In this document: one piece after another, positions 51,591-61,988 of the stretch
Numbering within the stretch: the first letter of the stretch is position 1
Layout: every line of letters starts with the position of its first letter
Origin: Aureliella helgolandensis
GTDB taxonomy: Bacteria; Planctomycetota; Planctomycetia; Pirellulales; Pirellulaceae
Reading direction: 5' to 3'
Assembly (NCBI RefSeq): GCF_007752135.1
Contig: NZ_CP036298.1
Location: forward strand, 3,534,001-3,598,000
DNA length: 64,000 nt
Program-made: the position numbers and the translations under genes
Notes under the pieces: model-generated
The model's database searches: none
Told to the model about the DNA's origin: nothing
The model's input: the letters and a program-made list of their open reading frames with translations, nothing else

Positions 51591-51693
51591 AGCGAGGGCG
51601 GGCACGACCGTTAAAACCTGGTCTTCCGCCTGAGTTGCTAGCACGTTAACCTGTTGCAGTCCTGCCTTTACACTGCCCAAGTTGGAGTCTGCA

Positions 51694-53856
51694 ATGGAAA
51701 CCACCGCTTCAGAACGTCCCAATCCAGCGTTCAATCCGGACGATTTGCCAACGCTGTTTGGGCATCCCACCGGATTGTACACGCTGTTTTTTGCCGAGAT
51801 GTGGGAACGATTCTCTTACTATGGCATGCGAGCATTGCTCGTTCTGTACATGATTAAGGGGACGCTTGGCTTCGGCGAAAAGGATGCAAATGCGATCTAC
51901 GGTGCCTACACCGCCCTGGTCTATATGACTCCCTTTTTTGGCGGGATGATTGCCGATCGCCTGTTGGGTAAACGCACTGCGGTGATCATCGGCGGGTTGC
52001 TGATGGCCGCAGGGCACTTGATGATGATGTCCGAGGATAAATTCTGGTTCTTCTCGGCGTTGGGGCTGCTGATTGCCGGTAATGGTTTCTTCAAGCCCAA
52101 TATTTCCTCCATGGTAGGCAATCTGTACTCGGCCTCCAATCCGAAGCGAGACGGCGGATTTACACTGTTCTACATCGGAATCAATTTGGGGGCTGCCCTG
52201 GCGCCACTCTTGTGCGGATATGTGGGCGAAACGTACGGCTGGCACCGCGGGTTTGGCCTAGCTACGATCGGCATGCTCGTTGGCTTGGCCTTGTTTGTTG
52301 CGCCCACCCGCCTAACCCAGGTATTGATCTTCATTACGGCCGCCGCTAGTGCCTATGGCATCATCTTTTTTCAAGCGAGCGACATTTTCTCTGTGGCCCT
52401 CAACACTTTCGTACTGTTCGCCCTGGCATTGTCTTCCGTGGCAGCGATCGTGGCGCTTGCGCGCGGCGGTCTTCCTGCGCAGGTCGGCAACGCTCCAGAT
52501 CCCAAGAGTTACGGAACCAATTTGGCTTACGTCTTAGTCGGTACATTCCTGATCATTCCCATCTTCGTCGTGCTTGTCTCTGGTTTCTCGGTCCTACCGA
52601 TGTTTCCTGAGCAGTTGTCGCTGTTGCCGGAGAGCGTCATTGAGCCGCTGCAAGCCAGCGAATCGGCTCTCGTGCGAGGGCTTGCAACCTCGGTTGAGGA
52701 GGCGAGTCGTCCTGCCGGTTTGGTGCTAATTGCGGCCGGTCTGTTGGCGACGATCTATCTGTTTTGGGAGGCGTTGCGGATGACCAAGATCGCCCGAGAG
52801 AGGATGTTCGTCGTGTTTACCCTGACCTTCTTTTCGATTGTGTTCTGGGCCTTTTTTGAACAACAAGGAAGTTCGCTCAACAACTTCACCGACCGCAACA
52901 TCGATCGTGTAACGGAAGAACGACTGGCCGACCAGTCCGATGTGGGGCAGACCGTCACGCTGCGTCTCATTCCAGCCAATGATCAGACAAGAGAGTTCGA
53001 TTATTTGAGTCAGGAATATTTGGGGCATGTGAACGGCTCTGCCAGCATCAATACGCAAATTGAAAAAGCGGCGCGCGCGATCGAAGCCGCTCGCGAAGAG
53101 GAACGCCGGCCCTCGCCAGAAGAAATGGAGACGCTGCTCGCGGAGTTGCTATCGCAGCCCAAGTTGACGATGACCGCCGCTACCTATTTGCGTGAGTTCG
53201 CCAAGAGTGAGGCAGCCCAGGATGCGGACAAAGTGGTGGAGTGGACCTTCCAAGAGGAGAGTGTTGGGAAGCTCGGCATTGGCGGTAGCGAGATACCTGC
53301 CTCCGTGTTCCAGTCAGTCAATGCGGTCTACATCATGTTGTTTGGTCTGCTCTTCACCGCGACCTGGAGCTATCTAGGGGCGCGCGGAATCGAACCCAGC
53401 ACACCTACCAAATTCGCTTTGGCTTTGCTGCAAGTTGCCTTGGCTTTCGGCATGCTCTACTTTGGCGCGCAATTGGCGGATAGTGACGGAATGGTTGGCG
53501 CCGTCTGGCTGTTGTTGATGTACCTGCTGCTGACTACGGGCGAGCTGTGCTTGTCGCCGGTGGGGCTGTCCATGGTGACCAAGCTGACTCCAGCCCATTT
53601 GGTCAGTACGGTGATGGGGTCGTGGTTCTTAGCAACTGCCTTTGCCCAATTCCTGGCCGCAATCATTGCTCAGTATGCCGTGGTAAACGATGGAGGCAAC
53701 GTGGTACCAATCCCTGCTGAGACCGTGAATGTCTATGGAGATGTGTACTGGCTGGTCGCGGTGATGGCTGGTGTGACCGGCTTGGTCTGCTTGGCCATGT
53801 CACCGCTCCTGAAGAAATGGATGCACCTCGGCGTGGATGAAGCTGGCGCAACCTAA
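51694..53856 (+). CDS. POT/PTR2-family proton-coupled peptide transporter
   Basis: The 720-residue membrane protein has the POT opening LFFAEMWERFSYYGMRALLVLYM (with the ExxER-like EMWERFSYYG), GGMIADRLLGKRTAVIIGG, the PTR2 signature region FFKPNISSMVGNLY and FTLFYIGINLGAALAPLLCGYVGE, and the C-terminal LTTGELCLSPVGLSMVTKLTP. It imports di- or tripeptides with protons. A soluble insertion of about 140 residues (about 396-538; many charged residues) splits the membrane part, between helices in the second half. GGAG stands 6 nt before the chosen ATG. It is the last plus-strand gene before the convergent hydroxyproline cluster. Confidence 0.92.
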   Translation: METTASERPNPAFNPDDLPTLFGHPTGLYTLFFAEMWERFSYYGMRALLVLYMIKGTLGFGEKDANAIYGAYTALVYMTPFFGGMIADRLLGKRTAVIIGGLLMAAGHLMMMSEDKFWFFSALGLLIAGNGFFKPNISSMVGNLYSASNPKRDGGFTLFYIGINLGAALAPLLCGYVGETYGWHRGFGLATIGMLVGLALFVAPTRLTQVLIFITAAASAYGIIFFQASDIFSVALNTFVLFALALSSVAAIVALARGGLPAQVGNAPDPKSYGTNLAYVLVGTFLIIPIFVVLVSGFSVLPMFPEQLSLLPESVIEPLQASESALVRGLATSVEEASRPAGLVLIAAGLLATIYLFWEALRMTKIARERMFVVFTLTFFSIVFWAFFEQQGSSLNNFTDRNIDRVTEERLADQSDVGQTVTLRLIPANDQTREFDYLSQEYLGHVNGSASINTQIEKAARAIEAAREEERRPSPEEMETLLAELLSQPKLTMTAATYLREFAKSEAAQDADKVVEWTFQEESVGKLGIGGSEIPASVFQSVNAVYIMLFGLLFTATWSYLGARGIEPSTPTKFALALLQVALAFGMLYFGAQLADSDGMVGAVWLLLMYLLLTTGELCLSPVGLSMVTKLTPAHLVSTVMGSWFLATAFAQFLAAIIAQYAVVNDGGNVVPIPAETVNVYGDVYWLVAVMAGVTGLVCLAMSPLLKKWMHLGVDEAGAT

Positions 53857-53892
53857 AACCGGCGTTGCTTGTTGCCGCGTATCAACGCTACG

Positions 53893-53911
53893 GCCTGACG
53901 AGCTGTCAGGC
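53893..53911. terminator. Candidate hairpin between convergent genes
   Basis: GCCTGAC and GTCAGGC form a perfect 7-bp stem with a 5-nt loop. It lies between the POT stop and the oxidase stop. No T-run follows on either strand, so the terminator assignment is weak. Confidence 0.3.
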
Positions 53912-55164
53912 TATTGAAAACGGGCGAGCCCATACGGTGTTGGATCGAGATGCGGCGTCTCCGCTCCGATCAACTCCGTGACCAGACGGGCCGTGACCGG
54001 TGCGAGGGTTAACCCGAGCATGTTATGTCCAGCAGCAACCCAGGCATTGTTCCAACGTGGGCTGCGGTCGATGACCGGTAAGCCATCGTAGGTCATTGGC
54101 CGCCAGCCGTACCAAGTTTCCAGCTCTGGCTTTCCGAGAGGTTCGTGCAAGTAGTGTTGCGCACCGGTGCGTAGCAACTCAAGACGCTCTGGGCGTATCG
54201 ATTCGTCGTAACCCACAAATTCCATGATCGACCCCAGTCGATAACCACTTAGCATGGGAGTCACGGCCACCCGGTGCTCGGGGAAGATCATCGGAATGTT
54301 GGGGCAGCGGTTGGGGCGTGGCATCGTGATGGAGTAGCCCTTGCCGGGTTGAATCGGAATCTTGCAACCCAAATGTTCGTTGAGCATTGGTGCCCATGCT
54401 CCGGTTGCAAATAGAAATCGATCACCCGTTAATATTCCGTGACTGGTTTCGATGGCATCGATTCGGCCTTCTTGAGTCTGCAGCCCCTTGAACTTGCACT
54501 GCTCCAGAAATGCGCCGCCCCGCTGCTCCACTTGAGTTTGTAGGGAAGCAATCAGACGGTCTGGTCTGAGATGTGCGTCGTGTTCGTAGAACCATGCGCC
54601 TGCGATCGAATCCTTCAACGTCGGCTCGAGCTCAATGGCTTGCTGTGTGCTCAGCTTGCGTGCCGGTTCCTGGAAAACTTCGGTCAGCAAGCTATTGGTT
54701 GCAGCGTAAGATTCGAAGGCTTGAGGCGAAAGGTAGGGAAAGAGGAGTCCCTTTTTTTGCCATTCACAGGCAACATCTTGCTCGGAAACAAGCCATTCGT
54801 ACTCTCGCAATGTTGATGTTAGGAGCGCCTGGATCGCGTGAGCCGCAGAGAGCATGGAGCGCTTGTTACAGCGTTTGGCAAAATTCCACAACCAACTCCA
54901 GAGCGCCGGATCGAGTCTAGGTTGGATACGGAATGGGCTGTTGGGTGTCAGCATGGCGGTGAGAGCCGCCTTGAATGCGCCCGGTTCGGTCAATGGTAGT
55001 ACATGGCTGGGGCAGACCAAGCCACAATTTCCATAAGAGCAGGCGCGACCAATTTCCCCTTGGTCAATCACGGTGACTTGCCATCCATCTCGCGACAAAT
55101 ACCAAGCGCTGGTCACCCCGATAATTCCACCGCCGACAACCACGATATGACCACGGCTACCCAT
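53911..55164 (-). CDS. FAD-dependent D-amino-acid/D-hydroxyproline dehydrogenase (DadA-like)
   Basis: From ATG 55164 the 417-residue flavoprotein has the FAD motif IVVVGGGIIGVTSAWYLSRDG (about 6-26), then ACSYGNCGLVCPSHVLPL, typical of DadA-like and D-hydroxyproline dehydrogenases, and FATGAWAPMLNEHLGCKIPIQPGKGYSI, with a C-terminal GWRPMTYDGLPVIDRSPRWNNAWVAAGHNMLGLTLAP. Next to hydroxyproline epimerase the likely reaction is oxidation of cis-4-hydroxy-D-proline to pyrroline-4-hydroxy-2-carboxylate; that is inference from context. The start overlaps the end of the epimerase gene by 8 nt, so translation is probably coupled. No signal peptide is seen. Confidence 0.85.
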   Translation of the reverse strand: MGSRGHIVVVGGGIIGVTSAWYLSRDGWQVTVIDQGEIGRACSYGNCGLVCPSHVLPLTEPGAFKAALTAMLTPNSPFRIQPRLDPALWSWLWNFAKRCNKRSMLSAAHAIQALLTSTLREYEWLVSEQDVACEWQKKGLLFPYLSPQAFESYAATNSLLTEVFQEPARKLSTQQAIELEPTLKDSIAGAWFYEHDAHLRPDRLIASLQTQVEQRGGAFLEQCKFKGLQTQEGRIDAIETSHGILTGDRFLFATGAWAPMLNEHLGCKIPIQPGKGYSITMPRPNRCPNIPMIFPEHRVAVTPMLSGYRLGSIMEFVGYDESIRPERLELLRTGAQHYLHEPLGKPELETWYGWRPMTYDGLPVIDRSPRWNNAWVAAGHNMLGLTLAPVTARLVTELIGAETPHLDPTPYGLARFQ

Positions 55165-56149
55165 GTTGAATTCCCATACAGAAGGGATCTTGAGGGTCGA
55201 GCAATAGTTGCCCGGCACCTGTTATAAAAGCAGTGCCCGTGATGGAGGGAACGATGGGCCTCAAGGCCGCCAGTTGTCCGCTTGTGTCCAGGCTCTCCGA
55301 GTGCTCGGGATGGAGGTGTTTGTAGGTTGCTTCGAAAACGCTTCCCACGATACTCTGCTGGCGATAGAGACCGTCTGGCGGCAAGGTGCCATCGGCGGCC
55401 AGGCAGGCAATTTTGGCACTCGTCCCAGTGCCGCAGGGAGAGCGATCGTAGGCTCCACCCGGGCATAAAACATAGTTGCGTGAATCGGCGACGGAGGTCG
55501 AGCTACTTGGTCCAATGAGTTCAACGTGATCGATTTCCTCACCGTTTCGTCCCGTGATCTGCTGCTGCTGCAATGCGGATCGAATACTGCGTGCCAATGC
55601 GTCGAGTTGAGGTTGATTGTCGAGTCCAATCCGCAATCCATGGTCTTGGCAAAGAAAGAACCAATTCCCGCCCCAGGCAATATCTCCATGGACCTCGCGT
55701 CCGTCTGGGAGCACCAACGGGACGTTGCGCCGAAAGCGATAGCAGGGAACGTTCTGAAGAGTCACTCTGCCATGCGACCCTAGCTCAAATGGCACCACAC
55801 CAACGGGTGTTTCTAGCCTGTGTTGGCCGGGGGCGATGCGTCCCAAATGATGGAGCGCAACAGCTACTCCCATGGTGCCATGCCCGCACATGCCTAGCAC
55901 GCCGATGTTGTTGAAAAATAGGACGCCAGCGCCGCAGGAGCGATCGAGCGGTGGAGTCAATAGTGCGCCGACAAGCACATCGTTGCCTCTTGGCTCGCAC
56001 ACCATCGCTCTGCGAAAATCATCGAATTTCTGATGGAATTCGACTTTGCGTTCTGCCAACGTGGTGCCTGCAAAGCGTATCGGACTCTCGACGATGATCC
56101 GTGTCGGCTCACCGCCAGTATGGGTATCGACAAACTCAATACGTTGCAT
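55157..56149 (-). CDS. 4-hydroxyproline 2-epimerase (proline racemase family)
   Basis: The enzyme epimerises trans-4-hydroxy-L-proline to cis-4-hydroxy-D-proline by a two-base mechanism. The 330-residue product starts IEFVDTHTGGEPTRII and has both active-site cysteines of the family, in GMCGHGTMG (first Cys) and YDRSPCGTGTSA (second Cys), with IGPSSSTSVADSRNYVLCPGGAYDRSPCG as the second catalytic segment. The Cys/Cys pair fits a 4Hyp epimerase or proline racemase rather than a Thr-type dehydratase. A longer ORF reaches 56257, but its extra 36 residues are not family-like. It overlaps the oxidase gene by 8 nt and lies 120 nt after the MfnE-like gene. Confidence 0.92.
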   Translation of the reverse strand: MQRIEFVDTHTGGEPTRIIVESPIRFAGTTLAERKVEFHQKFDDFRRAMVCEPRGNDVLVGALLTPPLDRSCGAGVLFFNNIGVLGMCGHGTMGVAVALHHLGRIAPGQHRLETPVGVVPFELGSHGRVTLQNVPCYRFRRNVPLVLPDGREVHGDIAWGGNWFFLCQDHGLRIGLDNQPQLDALARSIRSALQQQQITGRNGEEIDHVELIGPSSSTSVADSRNYVLCPGGAYDRSPCGTGTSAKIACLAADGTLPPDGLYRQQSIVGSVFEATYKHLHPEHSESLDTSGQLAALRPIVPSITGTAFITGAGQLLLDPQDPFCMGIQHG

Positions 56150-56269
56150 AGATGGGCGCTCGTGGCGATTAGGGAGATTGGGATTTCTGAGGAGTGGTCG
56201 GATGCCAATCGGGCCTGGTGCTGCCCAATATACTGGGAACCCCAACTCTCCGTACATTGGGCAACACGG

Positions 56270-56884
56270 TTACTCGCGTAGGTTTACGATCTCTACTTGG
56301 TGTAGAGATTTTGCCAAGTCAGGGAAGTATGGGTCGACGATTCCTTGCTGGGCTAGTTCATCCAATCTATCCATGGGGCGAGTTACCGTAACGGACTTCA
56401 GTAACACCAGTTTCTCGGCGTTCATTCGTTGGCAACAGGCCGCGGCAATTGAATCGCTAGTAATGTCCCAGCTCTCGGGCAGCTGGATCTCGCCTTGAGT
56501 GGGGTGGATGAATAAACCGACCTGCACAATTGCCACAGACTGTTGCGACCGTCGGTCTGTCGCGCATCGCGAACTCAGGAAGAAATCGAGGTCCTCTCGT
56601 GTCTCGATGAGCAAGCGATTGGGCAGCAGTTGGTGGGCCAGCCTCGCCGTCTGCTCAAGAAGCGAAATGCAAAGCCAATGGGAAAAGGTCGCTGAGAATT
56701 GGTGGACCGCATCCAATTGGCGAACGGCATCCACCAAACTGCCACCGCCTACCAATACGAGGGTGCACGGATGGGGATTTGCAGCGCACCAGCGATCAAA
56801 CCTACTTCGCAGGTCTGGAGTGTTCAACAAGCTACCACCTAGCTTCACAATACGAATCGGCCGCGGAGAGCCCTGCTTATGCAT
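56270..56884 (-). CDS. Amino-acid-kinase-fold protein, MfnE-like
   Basis: The 204-residue protein has the amino acid kinase fold: IRIVKLGGSLLNTPDL (phosphate-binding GGS, about 9-24), TLVLVGGGSLVDAVRQLDAVHQFS (about 41-66), and WDITSDSIAAACCQRMNAEKLVLLKSV (nucleotide site). In methanogens MfnE phosphorylates the aminomethylfuran precursor of methanofuran, and related short kinases accompany tetrahydromethanopterin-linked C1 genes in methylotrophs and planctomycetes. MfnE-type activity is inferred mainly from the next-door MfnF-like gene. ATG 56884 is chosen because it overlaps the MfnF-like stop as ATGCATAA, an 8-nt overlap implying coupled translation; the ORF can extend to 56938. Confidence 0.75.
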   Translation of the reverse strand: MHKQGSPRPIRIVKLGGSLLNTPDLRSRFDRWCAANPHPCTLVLVGGGSLVDAVRQLDAVHQFSATFSHWLCISLLEQTARLAHQLLPNRLLIETREDLDFFLSSRCATDRRSQQSVAIVQVGLFIHPTQGEIQLPESWDITSDSIAAACCQRMNAEKLVLLKSVTVTRPMDRLDELAQQGIVDPYFPDLAKSLHQVEIVNLRE

Positions 56885-57959
56885 GCTGTTCAGCTCTATC
56901 CATGGAGCACAGCTGAGCAGCAGCCAGCGCCGGCGCAACGCGGGCTGCTTCTGGACTCAGGATATCGCTGAGAGCAACGGTTTCGATGCTGAAAGCTGAA
57001 TGCACTTGGGCTTGGCGAAACAGGGCTGTTCCATGGCCGGTTAGGAGAATCTTGGCGGATCCCACGCAACCTGCGGCGCGAAGATTGGTATCCAATGCTG
57101 CAGCCACCCGCCGCGCCTGTGCATCCAGGGCCTGAGTGGCTAACGTACCAATGAGTTCGCTAGAAAGAGTCTCCGCATCTTCGCCAATCATTCGCGCCAA
57201 TCGCGCCGTAGCGGATTGGATATCTCGTGGTCGTCCATCTGCCGTATCGCAGTTGTGCGACTGTTCGGGCGTGAGCCCCAGCACGAGGTAGACGTCGTCC
57301 ATGGTGGCAAACCGCTCTGCCATGAGAGGGCACGCAATCGGGACTTGCGGATCGTCGATCGCCAGGCTTACCTCGGAAAGGACCATCGCTAGCGGCGTGC
57401 GTTCCATCCCGGTATAGACCAGCTGCGACAGTTGCATGCGTTGCCGGTCCGTTTGAGCGGTGGTCGCGATTTGCGCATCGACCAAGGGGATAATGTCCGT
57501 GGTGGTGGAACCGATGTCGACGATGGCGTGCAGAGTAGACGGGGAGAAACGCTGAGACTTGCAAATCCAGTTCGCCAGTGCGTGCCAATTGCTAGCCGCC
57601 ACTGTCCAGGGAGAGAGGCATGCATCCTCGGCGGAGTACCAAGTTCCATCCACTCCGTAGACGCTGATTCCTGCAGTGGGAACTGCTGAGGATATCGATT
57701 CGATGATGTGCTTCACCCCTTGGCGTCGCGTTGCATAGCAATCGGCCAGCTCGCCAGTGAGGGTGAGGGCTAGGTGGACCTGCTCTAGGTTGATCCAGTC
57801 GGTAGCGGTCAGCATGTTCCGCACGACTTGGCCCAAGTGCTGATGTTCCAGCCACATCGGAAATGCCCGCGAAACGCACCGACCTGTGGTGTCGGACAGT
57901 TTAAGATTGGCACCCCCGATATCTGCGCCAACAATCGTGGGGGAAGCGAGCGAACTCAT
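56877..57959 (-). CDS. MfnF-like H4MPT-linked C1-pathway protein (hydantoinase/oxoprolinase-related)
   Basis: The 360-residue product begins with TIVGADIGGANLKLSDT, an actin/hydantoinase-like phosphate loop, and continues with GELADCYATRRQGVKHII, VDGTWYSAED, HAIVDIGSTTTDIIPLVD (second phosphate loop, about 168-186) and TGMERTPLAMV. This is the pattern of the family first known as a probable H4MPT-linked C1-transfer protein, whose archaeal member MfnF joins the furan and gamma-glutamyltyramine halves of methanofuran. Planctomycetes carry this C1 pathway, so a role in making the methanofuran-type carrier is likely. It overlaps the kinase gene upstream by 4 nt (ATGA) and the MfnE-like gene downstream by 8 nt. 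Confidence 0.82.
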   Translation of the reverse strand: MSSLASPTIVGADIGGANLKLSDTTGRCVSRAFPMWLEHQHLGQVVRNMLTATDWINLEQVHLALTLTGELADCYATRRQGVKHIIESISSAVPTAGISVYGVDGTWYSAEDACLSPWTVAASNWHALANWICKSQRFSPSTLHAIVDIGSTTTDIIPLVDAQIATTAQTDRQRMQLSQLVYTGMERTPLAMVLSEVSLAIDDPQVPIACPLMAERFATMDDVYLVLGLTPEQSHNCDTADGRPRDIQSATARLARMIGEDAETLSSELIGTLATQALDAQARRVAAALDTNLRAAGCVGSAKILLTGHGTALFRQAQVHSAFSIETVALSDILSPEAARVAPALAAAQLCSMDRAEQHA

Positions 57960-59881
57960 GTTGCGTTGATTTCTGCGGAGTTAGTTTGTGCGTAGTGAAT
58001 GGGTAAGATGATTTGAAATTTGCTGCCCGTCCCAAGTTGACTGGTCAATCGGATCTCGCCTCCCAATAGTTTGCAAAGCTCTTTGACAATCGACAGGCCA
58101 AGCCCTGTACCGGAGAATTTGCGGGTTAGTCCATCGTTCTGCAAGACTTCGTTGCTTTGTCGAAACTTCTCAAAGATGATTTCAAAGTCGGATTCGGGAA
58201 TGCCCACGCCCGTGTCCGCGACCGTGACATAAAAAAAGGACTCTGAAACGCGGCCCATGGAAACCGTAATGAGGCCACCGTCAGGCGTGAACTTAATGGC
58301 GTTTGAGAGTAGGTTGGTGAGGATCTGTTGGAGTTTGGGCTGGTCTTGGAAAATCTCAATCTGCGGGTCGTCCGACTCAATTTGCAGCCCCATATTCTTT
58401 TCGTCGATCAGGCTGCGCAACATATCGCACTGGGCGTGCGTCAAGGAGACAAGGTTAAATGAGGTAGGAGTCACGGTCATTTTGCCCGCTTCGACTTTAG
58501 CGAGATCGAGGATGTCGTTGATCATGTCGAGCAGGAGCTTGCCACTGCGTTGAATATTGGAGGCGTAGCGCTTCTGCTTCTCGGATAGCGAGGGGATGTC
58601 ATGCAGTACATCGCTAAAGCCAATAATGCTGTTCAAGGGAGTGCGCAATTCGTGACTCATATTTGCCAAAAAGTCGCTCTTGAGTCGATTCGCTTCAAAA
58701 AGGTTGAGGTTGGCTTGGGCGAGTTGGTCGACGCGCACGTCGAGCTCTTGGTTCAGATTTTGCAATTTCCCTTGGCTCTCCGTCATGTGACGAATCATCC
58801 GATTGAACGCATCTGCCAGCTCATTGAACTCATCGCCGGTATCGATGTTGGCGCGGAGATTGGTATTGCCGCGACTAATCTCATCACTAACGCTCCGCAG
58901 GTGTTTCAAGGGCATCAACACGAGGCGTTTTAGAACCCAGTGGACGATTACCAAGGTCGCAGCCACGGTGACCATTGCGATCGCGATCATTACTGCCAGC
59001 GTGGTGGCTGATGCAACTTGCGTTTGCCGGTGCGGCAGCAAGACCTTCACGACTCGGAACGGGATGGCTTCGGCAGTGGATGTCGGGTACCGCTTGTGGC
59101 AGCGCATGCAGCTTTCGGTGAACTTTACTGCATGGTAGTAGACGTACCAGCCTTCGCTGGGAGTTGGTCCAAAGAAATCCTTGCGCTCGTTTTCTGCGGG
59201 ATAGAGGGGCCCAGCCTCTCGAAAGAAAAAGCGTCGAGTGGGCTCCTCAGCAGCATTCAAGGGATCGTTGGTCGTGGCCAGTGGATCCGTCAACAAAATG
59301 TCCGGTGGCTCCGTTGCGGCCCCTGTTGAGGTTGCGACCGAGGGGGACAACGGCGATGGATTGGTGTTGGAGGCACCTCCGCCTGCTGCGGCCTCGGAGG
59401 CGGAAGACTGCTCCGCCAAATATTGCCGGAATTCAATCTGCAGATCCTCCAAGACGCGTCGCTCCTGCGCATCCTGGGGATGTTCGGCTTGATCCAATTC
59501 GATGTGCTGGCTGGTCTCCTCCAACATCAAGAACTCGTGATGATAGTTGGGATTCTCGATCAGGTCCTCACGGAGTTCTTTCAGCACGTCGGGCATAAAG
59601 TATTCACTGGGGAATACCGGGTTGGCAATGCTGGGGATATCTCGATCGACGTGGCTCCAAGCCACCATGGAATCTGCGTAATCGCGAGCCGCTTGCTGGG
59701 TGGTTTGCATTACCAAGCCGTCGGCCACCACTTCAAGCACGAACCAGAAAGAAGAGCCGATGGGGATGACGAGTGCGAAGGCCAAGAAGAGTAGGCTTTT
59801 GCTTTCGAGGCTCCAACCGACCACTATTACGCGAATGATGGCCCGCAAGAAGTTGAGAATAGACTGGAACGTGGCTCGCAT
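57956..59881 (-). CDS. Membrane sensor histidine kinase with a periplasmic c-type haem motif
   Basis: The 641-residue protein has membrane helix 1 (about 27-50) and a periplasmic region with a low-complexity Ala/Ser/Pro linker (about 155-215). A Tll0287-like part (GPTPSEGWYVYYHAVKFTESCMRCHKRYP) carries a CxxCH motif at about 257-261, the covalent haem-c site. Then come membrane helix 2 (about 295-320), a HAMP (VLMPLKHLRSVSDEISRGN), a coiled coil, HisKA with FLANMSHELRTPLNSIIGFS (His about 411) and HATPase (NLLSNAIKFTPDGG, VADTGVGIPESDFE, GTGLGLSIVKEL). It could sense redox state, oxygen, NO or CO. No response regulator is next to it. It opens the minus-strand cluster and overlaps the MfnF-like gene by 4 nt. 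Confidence 0.9.
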   Translation of the reverse strand: MRATFQSILNFLRAIIRVIVVGWSLESKSLLFLAFALVIPIGSSFWFVLEVVADGLVMQTTQQAARDYADSMVAWSHVDRDIPSIANPVFPSEYFMPDVLKELREDLIENPNYHHEFLMLEETSQHIELDQAEHPQDAQERRVLEDLQIEFRQYLAEQSSASEAAAGGGASNTNPSPLSPSVATSTGAATEPPDILLTDPLATTNDPLNAAEEPTRRFFFREAGPLYPAENERKDFFGPTPSEGWYVYYHAVKFTESCMRCHKRYPTSTAEAIPFRVVKVLLPHRQTQVASATTLAVMIAIAMVTVAATLVIVHWVLKRLVLMPLKHLRSVSDEISRGNTNLRANIDTGDEFNELADAFNRMIRHMTESQGKLQNLNQELDVRVDQLAQANLNLFEANRLKSDFLANMSHELRTPLNSIIGFSDVLHDIPSLSEKQKRYASNIQRSGKLLLDMINDILDLAKVEAGKMTVTPTSFNLVSLTHAQCDMLRSLIDEKNMGLQIESDDPQIEIFQDQPKLQQILTNLLSNAIKFTPDGGLITVSMGRVSESFFYVTVADTGVGIPESDFEIIFEKFRQSNEVLQNDGLTRKFSGTGLGLSIVKELCKLLGGEIRLTSQLGTGSKFQIILPIHYAQTNSAEINAT

Positions 59882-60251
59882 CGACTGAGGCTGCAGCTTT
59901 CGGAAATCCCAAGTGTAAGACTCAGGGGAGGGCGATCGATTTGGGATCCATTCAGTAGGGAACGCTTGTTGAACCCAAGTTTACCGCATGAACTGCCTTA
60001 CCAGGAATCGCAACTTCCACTGCATCTCGCAGGTTGTGCGGTAAAATCCGAGATAAACTAGCGACTGCTAAAGGAGGGGGGATTGTATGATTTATCCATT
60101 CAAACAGCCTAGTTTCTGTATTTTATTGGACTATCTCCCAACTTTCGGTTGTAATGTTTGCTTGCTTGTCCCGAATTCTGTGACTAGCATAACCTGAATA
60201 TCTCTACATCCCACAACATTTTCACGGTGCCCGAAAACGGGGAACGGACAT
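59882..60251. other. Divergent intergenic region with a small ORF
   Basis: This separates the kinase cluster (minus) from the SHD1 gene (plus). Its right part holds a 36-codon ORF with a near-perfect SD; no other gene is supported. Confidence 0.6.
60087..60197 (+). CDS. Candidate small protein or leader peptide, 36 residues
   Basis: AAGGAGG (about 60071-60077) stands about 9 nt before ATG 60087, one of the best SD sequences in the window. The ORF encodes a 36-residue peptide starting MIYPFKQPSFCILLDYLP, with a hydrophobic, Cys-containing composition, and ends 54 nt before the SHD1-repeat gene on the same strand. It could be a leader peptide that affects the downstream gene, an independent small protein, or a chance ORF. 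I see no run of one amino acid and no attenuator hairpin after it. Confidence 0.35.
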   Translation: MIYPFKQPSFCILLDYLPTFGCNVCLLVPNSVTSIT

Positions 60252-61988
60252 ATGTCAAAAGGCTTTCGGTACTGGATTCGCTTCAACACAGTCGCGCTCC
60301 TAACAGTTGTCATCACTTTCAATCCCGTTTGGGCCGGTCGCGGACTTCGCGGTTGGCTTAAGAAACGCGCGGCATGTCCACCGGTGGAATGCTGTGTCCC
60401 GAGCACTCCATGCGACGTGGGGTTTGATTCAGGCTGTGCAAGTTGTGGCGCGCCAAGTGCCTGTGGCTGCGATAGTGGCGTTCAATGGATGCCCCCAGCA
60501 ACCGACTGTGGCTGTGGGACAGTGGTTGAGTCCATGCCGGTTGAGCCCTGGTCGAGCAGTGATTCCGTCGTTGCTCCCCTGGACGTTGCTCCCCAGCATT
60601 CCGAGGCTCCAGCCGCGGATGAGCCACCTCCCGCGCCTGCAGTCGTCGAAGAAAGTGCAGAAGCTCCTGAGCCGCCCGCTGCTGAGCAGCCTAGCAGCCC
60701 ATCAGACGTTGCTCCCGCCGAGCCTGCCCCTGCCGTCGAAACGCCTGAACCTCCTGCCGTGGAGGAAACGGTGCCATCAACCGAGGATGTGTTTGGGGAG
60801 GCTCCCGACGCTGGTGATGCTCCCTCACCGGACGACGATTTGTTTGGCACCCCTGCTGATCCAGCTCCTGCGCCTGCGGTAGAAGAGGATTTGTTCGGCA
60901 CGCCAGCTGAGCCGGCCCCTGCGACTGGCGATGATCTGTTCGACGCACCAGCGACTGAAGCGGCTCCTGCGGGCGATGATCTGTTCGGTGCTCCCGCCGC
61001 TGATGCCGCACCTGCTGCCGGTGAGGATCTGTTCGGTACTCCCGCGACCGACGCGGCTCCTGCAGGCGAAGATCTGTTCGGTGCCCCCGCTGCGGATGCC
61101 GCACCTGCTGCCGGTGAGGACCTGTTCGGTGCCCCCGCGACCGACGCGGCTCCTGCAGGCGACGATCTGTTCGGTGCTCCCGCCGCGGATGCCGCACCTG
61201 CTGCCGGTGAGGACCTGTTCGGTGCCCCCGCGACCGACGCGGCTCCTGCAGGCGACGATCTGTTCGGTGCTCCTGCCGCGGATGCCGCACCTGCTGAAGG
61301 TGAGGATCTGTTCGGTGCTCCCGCGACCGACGCGGCTCCCGCAGGCGACGATCTGTTTGGAGCTCCCGCTGCGGATGCCACACCCGCTGAAGGTGAGGAT
61401 CTGTTCGGTACTCCTGCGACAGACGCGGCCCCCGCAGGCGACGATCTGTTCGGAGCTCCGGCTGCCGACGAAGTACCAGCCGCAGGCGATGACCTGTTCG
61501 AAGTGCCTGCCGACGACGCGGCCCCGGCGGACGGTGATGACTTGTTTGGTACACCAGCTGATCCCGCTCCGGCTCCCACCGCAGGAGACGATTTGTTTGG
61601 TATTCCAAGTAGCAGTGACGATTCTGCGGATGACCTGTTCGGAAAGCCTACTTCGACATCCGATAGTTCGGCTCCTACCGATTTGGACGACCTATTTGGA
61701 ACCCCAGAAGTGCCTGCCGAAGCAGCGGAAGAAGCCGAATCCGATCCCTTTGATGACCTGTTCAAGAGCAGCGAATTCCGCACTTGGCGAGATAACACGG
61801 GGGGCTTTGAAGTTGAGGCTCAGTTGGCTGAAATTCGAAGCGATAGCGTTCGGTTGCTCAAGGACAATGGCAAGTACTGCACTGTCCCAATGGAGCGTCT
61901 AAGCCCAGTGGACAGAGCTCTGATCGTACAGATCGCAAGTCGTATTCCGAGTGGGCAAGTCAAGTTTATCGCGACGTCCAACCCTTGA
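60252..61988 (+). CDS. Secreted SHD1-domain protein with about 20 DLF repeats
   Basis: The 578-residue protein has an N-terminal signal sequence (hydrophobic TVALLTVVITFNPVWA, cleavage near residue 28) and a Cys-rich segment (about 38-90, with pairs such as CCVPSTPC and CGCDSGV). A Pro/Ala/Glu-rich part follows, and then (about 195-495) a tandem array of units of 15-16 residues, each starting (D/E)DLFG and continuing AP(A)xDAAPAxG. I count 20 DLF units, many in alternating 15/16-residue pairs, so the DNA repeats about every 93 nt. The C-terminal SHD1 domain (about 505-570) has FRTWRDNTGGFEVEAQLAEI and VPMERLSPVDRALI. SHD1 is common in planctomycete exported proteins; its role there is unknown. 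Confidence 0.85.
   Translation: MSKGFRYWIRFNTVALLTVVITFNPVWAGRGLRGWLKKRAACPPVECCVPSTPCDVGFDSGCASCGAPSACGCDSGVQWMPPATDCGCGTVVESMPVEPWSSSDSVVAPLDVAPQHSEAPAADEPPPAPAVVEESAEAPEPPAAEQPSSPSDVAPAEPAPAVETPEPPAVEETVPSTEDVFGEAPDAGDAPSPDDDLFGTPADPAPAPAVEEDLFGTPAEPAPATGDDLFDAPATEAAPAGDDLFGAPAADAAPAAGEDLFGTPATDAAPAGEDLFGAPAADAAPAAGEDLFGAPATDAAPAGDDLFGAPAADAAPAAGEDLFGAPATDAAPAGDDLFGAPAADAAPAEGEDLFGAPATDAAPAGDDLFGAPAADATPAEGEDLFGTPATDAAPAGDDLFGAPAADEVPAAGDDLFEVPADDAAPADGDDLFGTPADPAPAPTAGDDLFGIPSSSDDSADDLFGKPTSTSDSSAPTDLDDLFGTPEVPAEAAEEAESDPFDDLFKSSEFRTWRDNTGGFEVEAQLAEIRSDSVRLLKDNGKYCTVPMERLSPVDRALIVQIASRIPSGQVKFIATSNP
60840..61790 (+). repeat. Tandem coding repeats of the DLF array
   Basis: The stretch encodes 20 units with the motif (D/E)DLF, most of 45-48 nt. 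From about 60960 to 61500 alternating APAAD and APATD units make a higher-order period of about 93 nt with near-identical copies. A minus-strand ORF of over 400 codons here is only a shadow of this repeat. Confidence 0.85.

Follow-up and report, generated by a model that had tools for sequence, protein, structure and literature searches.

The 64,000-nucleotide (nt) stretch of the Aureliella helgolandensis genome analysed here (the window; positions 3,534,001-3,598,000 of an 8.44-Mb single-contig genome, labelled G000) carries, between its positions 53911 and 59881, five minus-strand genes in the order sensor histidine kinase, MfnF-like, MfnE-like, 4-hydroxyproline epimerase and D-hydroxyproline dehydrogenase, Table 1. 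The genes are tightly packed: the kinase and MfnF-like genes overlap by 4 nt (ATGA), the MfnF-like and MfnE-like genes by 8 nt and the epimerase and dehydrogenase genes again by 8 nt, and the sole gap in the array is one of 120 nt between the MfnE-like and epimerase genes. The open reading frames (ORFs) bear out the order, overlaps and gap given in an earlier, sequence-only reading of this DNA, and the gene identities it proposed hold at the family level, by Pfam and TIGR/NCBIfam profiles and PDB relatives, with MfnE very diverged. The start codons are a choice: the longest ORFs open at TTG 56938 for MfnE, at ATG 56257 for the epimerase, which would cut the gap to 12 nt, and at GTG 55218 for the dehydrogenase. 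The starts adopted here are backed by homology, with solved 4-hydroxyproline epimerases aligning from Met1 of the form of 330 amino acids (aa). On balance we think it reasonably probable that the array is a compact, probably co-transcribed arrangement of three modules with separate histories, rather than a dedicated regulon.

Table 1 Features of the five-gene array and its flanks (positions in the window; aa, amino acids)
Feature	Position	Strand	Evidence or detail
Membrane sensor histidine kinase, 641 aa	57956..59881	-	HAMP 2e-9, HisKA 2e-22, HATPase_c 1e-27 (Pfam)
CMRCH, putative haem-c attachment motif, kinase residues 258-262	59096..59110	-	Invariant CxxCH in 13/13 genus kinases
MfnF-like (Orf9-type), 360 aa, predicted condensing enzyme in the methanofuran/methylofuran pathway	56877..57959	-	TIGR03123 250.1 bits
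MfnE-like (Orf21-type) amino-acid-kinase-family protein, 204 aa	56270..56884	-	NF040622 5e-9; AA_kinase (Pfam)
Hairpin, 16 uninterrupted stem pairs (G-T included), 18-nt loop	56218..56267	-	Shuffle test
Predicted trans-4-hydroxy-L-proline 2-epimerase, 330 aa	55157..56149	-	Pro_racemase 4e-85; NF052296 361 bits
FAD-dependent D-amino-acid dehydrogenase family, 417 aa; predicted cis-4-hydroxy-D-proline dehydrogenase	53911..55164	-	DAO 6e-70
PTR2/POT-type oligopeptide:H+ symporter, convergent neighbour, possibly associated with the hydroxyproline genes	51682..53856	+	TIGR00924 319 bits vs cut-off 130
Divergent SHD1-domain gene beside kinase	60252-61988	divergent	93-nt tandem repeat, ~6 copies, DLFGAPA-type peptide

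The separation into modules follows from the way in which the junctions fare among relatives. An MfnF match was found in 58 of the 60 relatives sampled, giving 15 loci in the genus (the window's genome and one for each of 14 further species) and 43 outside it. In 12 of the 15 genus genomes the gene immediately 5' of MfnF is the kinase, an arrangement seen at none of the 43 outside loci, four of which have less than 2 kb of upstream sequence; the kinase is likewise missing from this position at 14 MfnF loci on named contigs (including Rhodopirellula, Stieleria and Pirellula), several of which belong to the same genomes. MfnE, in contrast, comes right after MfnF at 34 of the 43 outside loci and is adjacent or fused to it in 5 of the 15 genus genomes. 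Of the 13 genus loci with an epimerase, 11 have the dehydrogenase as the next gene downstream and the other two, in G008 and G012, stop at contig edges. Only three of the 15 genomes (G000, G008 and G010) have the epimerase 3' of MfnF and in the same orientation. Because conservation differs in this manner from pair to pair, we treat the kinase, mfnF-mfnE and the hydroxyproline genes as separate modules. The pairing as such is non-random, with kinase-MfnF, MfnF-MfnE and epimerase-dehydrogenase each recurring in relatives, and it is the MfnE/epimerase junction that is poorly conserved.

The sequence-only reading had taken the five genes as one coupled cluster and proposed that a haem-bearing sensor jointly controls one-carbon (C1) cofactor synthesis and hydroxyproline catabolism from a single operon. 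Their common strand and three overlaps speak for such an operon, as do wider versions of the array in G008 and G010: in the former, MfnE and a gene resembling dihydrodipicolinate synthase (DHDPS) lie between MfnF and the epimerase, and in the latter a TIGR04222 protein and a DHDPS-like gene do so, with no match to MfnE. The exact order, however, was found only in the window's genome among the 15 compared, these DHDPS-containing forms being the looser counterparts. The epimerase was not seen next to MfnF or MfnE in 9 of the 12 genus genomes that have it (where G005 offers about 1 kb of upstream sequence and G012 about 2 kb) and has no match in the other three (G006, G013 and G014), the DHDPS-like gene of the window's genome lies some 0.9 Mb from the array, and a strong hairpin separates the two halves. 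The cluster as one coupled unit is thus not supported, and we consider joint control from one operon very unlikely. An epimerase convergent with MfnF-MfnE in G040 (L073) was taken as chance; the 17 kb of sequence examined there has no dehydrogenase or DHDPS-like match.

It had also been suggested that the 120-nt gap might hide a promoter and split the unit in two. Promoter and terminator scans found no sigma-70 promoter and no canonical intrinsic terminator in the gap, and what does support a split point is the hairpin, which begins 2 nt past the MfnE stop codon and has no T run after its stem. Its 16 stem pairs were reached by none of 2000 dinucleotide shuffles (maximum 14) and by 2 of 1065 window tiles of 120 nt (plus strand). 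The RNA fold, at -38.8 kcal/mol, is more modest (z -2.17), with 5 of 200 shuffles equally good. The gap was rejected as a repeated element, having a single match in its own genome, and as an Rfam RNA, with no match at the gathering score within positions 53000-61000. A conserved operator was rejected as well: in nine other upstream regions (six of the epimerase, three of the DHDPS-like gene) the best stem had 11 pairs, and none was comparable. The hairpin probably sets a boundary in the mRNA, or stabilises it, between the mfnE and epimerase modules; a 3' boundary, a stability element and an operator are all possible roles.

We then turn to the kinase, whose predicted extracytoplasmic N-terminal domain with a CxxCH motif is followed by HAMP, HisKA and HATPase_c domains. 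A profile of the sensor (E up to 1e-8) matched 67 of 98 relatives, comprising 13 of the 15 genus genomes and 54 of the 83 others; 20 of these 54 loci were read, of which 19 gave a labelled kinase ORF. The two genus genomes with no match, G002 and G003, are 84% and 80% complete. CxxCH and a preceding Tyr-Tyr-His (residues 248-250 of the window's kinase) are invariant in all 13 aligned genus kinases, and a motif of the haem type is present in all 19 non-genus kinases read, as CX2CH in 15 of them and as CX3CH in the other 4. A provisional class of four non-genus kinases lacking the motif was rejected, as all four carry CX3CH. These kinases (L186, L187, L188 and L190) keep the surrounding Tyr pattern and show that the sCache_heme motif varies naturally.

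The best Pfam match of the window's sensor is PF11845 (Tll0287-like), with E 0.0012 and 19.7 bits, under the gathering cut-off of 24.1; with an E limit of 10, the same family is matched by 10 of the 13 sensors from the genus, the best at 3.8e-4. Because the score lies under the curated cut-off, we call the sensor Tll0287-like at a distance and do not file it as a member. A PDB profile search with the 13 sensors, up to E 5, gave chance-level matches only (E at least 0.2) and no Tll0287 chain, and a single-sequence AlphaFold2 model of the sensor reached a mean pLDDT of 46, too low to show whether it has a Cache fold in which strands 3 and 4 flank the motif. A 2026 preprint (PMC12889525) presents the members of PF11845 as Cache domains to which haem c is covalently attached, and reports that the signalling-associated member tested binds nitric oxide (NO) and does not form a stable oxy-complex. 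The window's kinase resembles the Tll0287-like/DUF3365/sCache_heme sensor kinases in its invariant CXXCH domain at the N-terminus, succeeded by HAMP and histidine kinase parts, and differs from them in the sub-cut-off score, a variable insert ahead of the motif and the CX3CH form of some non-genus kinases. Haem c is probably bound covalently in the sensor, whose domain would be a diverged Tll0287-like/sCache_heme one, and on the analogy of that signalling member its signal could be NO or redox state. Of the haem-c sensor kinase that the sequence-only reading had named, the kinase domains and CxxCH are plainly there, and haem binding is what the motif would predict.

The junction of kinase and MfnF is an ATGA overlap in five of the 12 genus genomes with the pair (G000, G005, G006, G009 and G011) and 0-1 nt wide in G007 and G010; in the remaining five it is looser or could not be fixed. 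In G001, G004, G006 and G013 the kinase keeps MfnF although MfnE sits elsewhere, while in G012 it is on a separate contig from MfnF, beside an SHD1 gene. Such a gene flanks the kinase in eight genus genomes, the window's included. Outside the genus, RNase HI is the next gene downstream on the same strand for 9 of the 19 kinases (families checked on examples), and the nine spacings, measured from mechanical ORF starts, comprise one overlap (L192), two of 12-29 nt and six of 56-201 nt. A divergent SHD1-domain gene is found upstream at 8 of the 20 loci and a PriA-type gene at five, four times directly and once across another gene. At L184, L193, L196, L199, L200 and L201 the haem-motif kinase sits among PriA, RNase HI, RecG and NadD genes, a replication-restart neighbourhood. 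A gene of about 150 aa beside the non-genus kinases was tried as the response regulator and rejected, since the tested example is RNase HI. We use the kinase/RNase HI pairing as an adjacency control, which would not itself imply sensor control of RNase HI.

One could also speculate that the kinase and MfnF form a dedicated circuit, in which the haem-c kinase, sensing NO or redox state, would regulate methanofuran synthesis from within the operon that it shares with mfnF, and with mfnE where this is linked, and so tune formaldehyde/formyl oxidation, with the hydroxyproline genes as passengers. Its place directly 5' of MfnF in most of the genus, with an ATGA or 0-1 nt junction in 7 of 12 cases, tighter than most kinase/RNase HI pairs, would fit this proposal, as would the four genomes in which the pair persists without an adjacent MfnE. 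The kinases outside the genus nevertheless adjoin RNase HI, PriA or SHD1 genes, the kinase of G012 is parted from MfnF, G052, a 99% complete genome in which MfnF, Mch and MfnB all went unmatched, also has the kinase, and no response regulator was identified; we regard a dedicated circuit as rather unlikely. The same neighbours, and the kinase of G052 in a genome without the C1 genes sought, also leave the joint control by a haem sensor proposed earlier without support. The kinase-MfnF pair is genus-specific within our sample and probably co-transcribed, and it is most defensible to speak of three modules, tightly arrayed, among which this pair is the single unusual conserved coupling.

Some observations weigh against a division into independent modules. 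The RNase HI control is imperfect, since most such pairs are looser than kinase-MfnF. Within the genus, kinase-MfnF outlasts MfnF-MfnE despite the divergence of the kinase (54-65% identity to that of the window), which may reflect selection for the link. Moreover, the hydroxyproline genes lie 3' of MfnF in two supported clades, so that the junction may be ancestral: in a tree of the kinase domain, MfnF and Mch, G000 groups with G010 (support 93) and G008 with G007, G014, G009 and G002 (support 94), although the backbone has support of 16-59, the tree is partly built from the kinase and MfnF themselves, and the MfnF rows are short for G005, G007 and G014. The linkage of MfnF to hydroxyproline genes could have had one early origin with many losses or more than one origin. 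In a tree of the epimerase and dehydrogenase, which bears on joint horizontal transfer, G008 does not group with G000 and G010, at low support.

Turning to the second of the three modules, the MfnF-like protein clears the TIGR03123 cut-off of 244.1 bits (249.8 bits in a whole-genome scan), reaches 177 bits against the MfnF equivalog NF040623, whose cut-off is 520, and matches the archaeal structures 3c0b/3cet at 9e-39. MfnE is far more diverged, with 36 bits against an NF040622 cut-off of 300. At E up to 1e-4, no other arrangement outside the genus is as common as MfnE right after MfnF; at one further locus it is farther off and at eight of the 43 there is no match. Among the genus genomes in which it does not adjoin MfnF, it is elsewhere in six and has no match in four. 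In G009 (L051:7617-9341, 574 aa) and G002 (L102, 656 aa) MfnF-MfnE is a single continuous ORF, and in G009 both profiles match this one protein. Sections of PMC8141765 identify Orf22, Orf21 and Orf9 of Methylorubrum as homologues of MfnB, MfnE and MfnF; this Orf21/Orf9 pairing, the linkage to MfnF and the fused ORFs together support the assignment of the diverged MfnE. The window's pair resembles orf21/orf9 of Methylorubrum extorquens and archaeal mfnE/mfnF, as portrayed in those sections, in comprising the same two families, adjacent, in a genome with Mch, Ftr and MfnB. It differs in lying outside any 'archaeal-like' C1 cluster, in its very diverged MfnE, in the attached sensor kinase and in the fusion seen in two relatives.

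The role of C1 genes of the tetrahydromethanopterin (H4MPT)/methanofuran type in non-methylotrophic Planctomycetes is unsettled. That such genes occur in Planctomycetes is known (PMC5020050, in part), and in our sample Mch was matched in 54 and MfnB in 53 of the 60 relatives. In G052 and G053 (99% and 97% complete) all three of MfnF, Mch and MfnB are unmatched, and by these coincident absences MfnF belongs with the C1 pathway. Both are from the same order as the window's genome and appear to have lost H4MPT/methanofuran C1 transfer as a whole pathway. MfnF occurs with no Mch match in G001, G014, G016 (99% complete) and G028, and with no MfnB match in G002, G030, G036, G047 and G058. Ftr is present in all 15 genus genomes. 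Two FTR-family matches occur in 12 of them (G000:C1:594968 and 4786303 in the window's genome), possibly an Ftr pair with different function. MfnB, Mch and Ftr are 1.2-4.5 Mb from the array in the window's genome.

The third module is made up of the epimerase and the dehydrogenase. The epimerase aligns over its full length with solved 4-hydroxyproline epimerases (2e-100), and both catalytic Cys motifs, MCGH and DRSPCGTG, are present when aligned to 4jci and 4k7x. Counting by hand and assuming no gap, a Cys lies six residues ahead of the Asp of DRSPCGTG, a position that is Cys or Tyr in epimerases and Phe in racemases according to parts of PMC4364671. The score against the 4-hydroxyproline epimerase family NF052296 is under the cut-off of 450 bits, and the dehydrogenase, whose closest curated family is the D-amino acid dehydrogenase NF001933, reaches 243 bits against a cut-off of 383; we predict it to be a cis-4-hydroxy-D-proline dehydrogenase. 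The 12 genus genomes with an epimerase have 13 loci, at four of which (two in G001, and those of G008 and G010) a DHDPS-like gene lies ahead of it; in G002 one comes after the fused MfnF-MfnE, and that of the window's genome, at 4,475,324, is not near any epimerase. The catabolism of trans-4-hydroxy-L-proline (t4Hyp), as outlined in portions of PMC4113996, proceeds through an epimerase, an oxidase of the D-amino acid oxidase (DAAO) family, a DHDPS-family deaminase as third step and an alpha-ketoglutarate semialdehyde (KGSA) dehydrogenase. The module resembles the clusters shown in those portions in the overlap of the epimerase with a DAAO-family gene and, in G001, G008 and G010, in the upstream DHDPS-like gene, and differs in the remote DHDPS-like gene of the window's genome. 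A peptide transporter of the PTR2 type adjoins the pair in four genus genomes (G000, G005, G007 and G010), from which we infer that peptide-derived hydroxyproline could be the substrate. In the portions of the literature on planctomycete hydroxyproline epimerases that we consulted, we found no description of such a locus, and a search for literature joining planctomycete methanofuran and histidine kinases found none.

N-methylated hydroxyproline betaine occurs in some marine algae, and a metabolic link between the two halves could be imagined, in which hydroxyproline or such a betaine is degraded and the C1 genes remove formaldehyde arising from demethylation. The solved relatives of the dehydrogenase do include glycine, sarcosine and dimethylglycine oxidases, the H4MPT genes are present, and organisms using t4Hyp-betaine are mentioned in PMC4113996 (in the portions available). 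No demethylase gene was recognised within the cluster, however, the closest curated family is not sarcosine oxidase, and G006 and G013 have Mch and MfnF with no epimerase match. We find such a link highly improbable.

Under the three-module reading, the first module would be a membrane histidine kinase, spread across the order, with a haem-c sensor, which in the genus is usually translationally coupled to mfnF. The second, mfnF-mfnE, would perform consecutive late steps in the synthesis of a methanofuran-type cofactor for the H4MPT pathway encoded elsewhere. In the third, epimerase and D-hydroxyproline dehydrogenase would carry out the first two steps in the catabolism of trans-4-hydroxyproline, with a transporter for peptides adjacent and a DHDPS-like candidate for step 3 located elsewhere in the genome. 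The kinase would most likely signal in trans to a response regulator, and its location ahead of mfnF would mean that the two genes are transcribed together, not that one regulates the other. A bolder version, to which we assign a slim chance, holds that the genus recruited a haem-c (NO/redox) kinase into a translationally coupled mfnF operon, where it governs the supply of the methanofuran-type cofactor, and that in G000, G008 and G010 hydroxyproline catabolism joined the same transcript.

The array is mostly ordinary, with the kinase-MfnF coupling as its one lead. A tight, overlapping arrangement of this type can imply more unity than relatives show, as illustrated by the kinase, whose neighbours differ outside the genus. 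The MfnF-MfnE fusion, for its part, backs the identity given to the MfnE of planctomycetes, diverged as it is. If the recruitment of the kinase to mfnF is real, the capacity for C1 oxidation would respond to periplasmic NO or redox state. A sensor kinase coupled to mfnF across most of a genus provides a testable regulatory handle on the function of the C1 genes in non-methylotrophic Planctomycetes.

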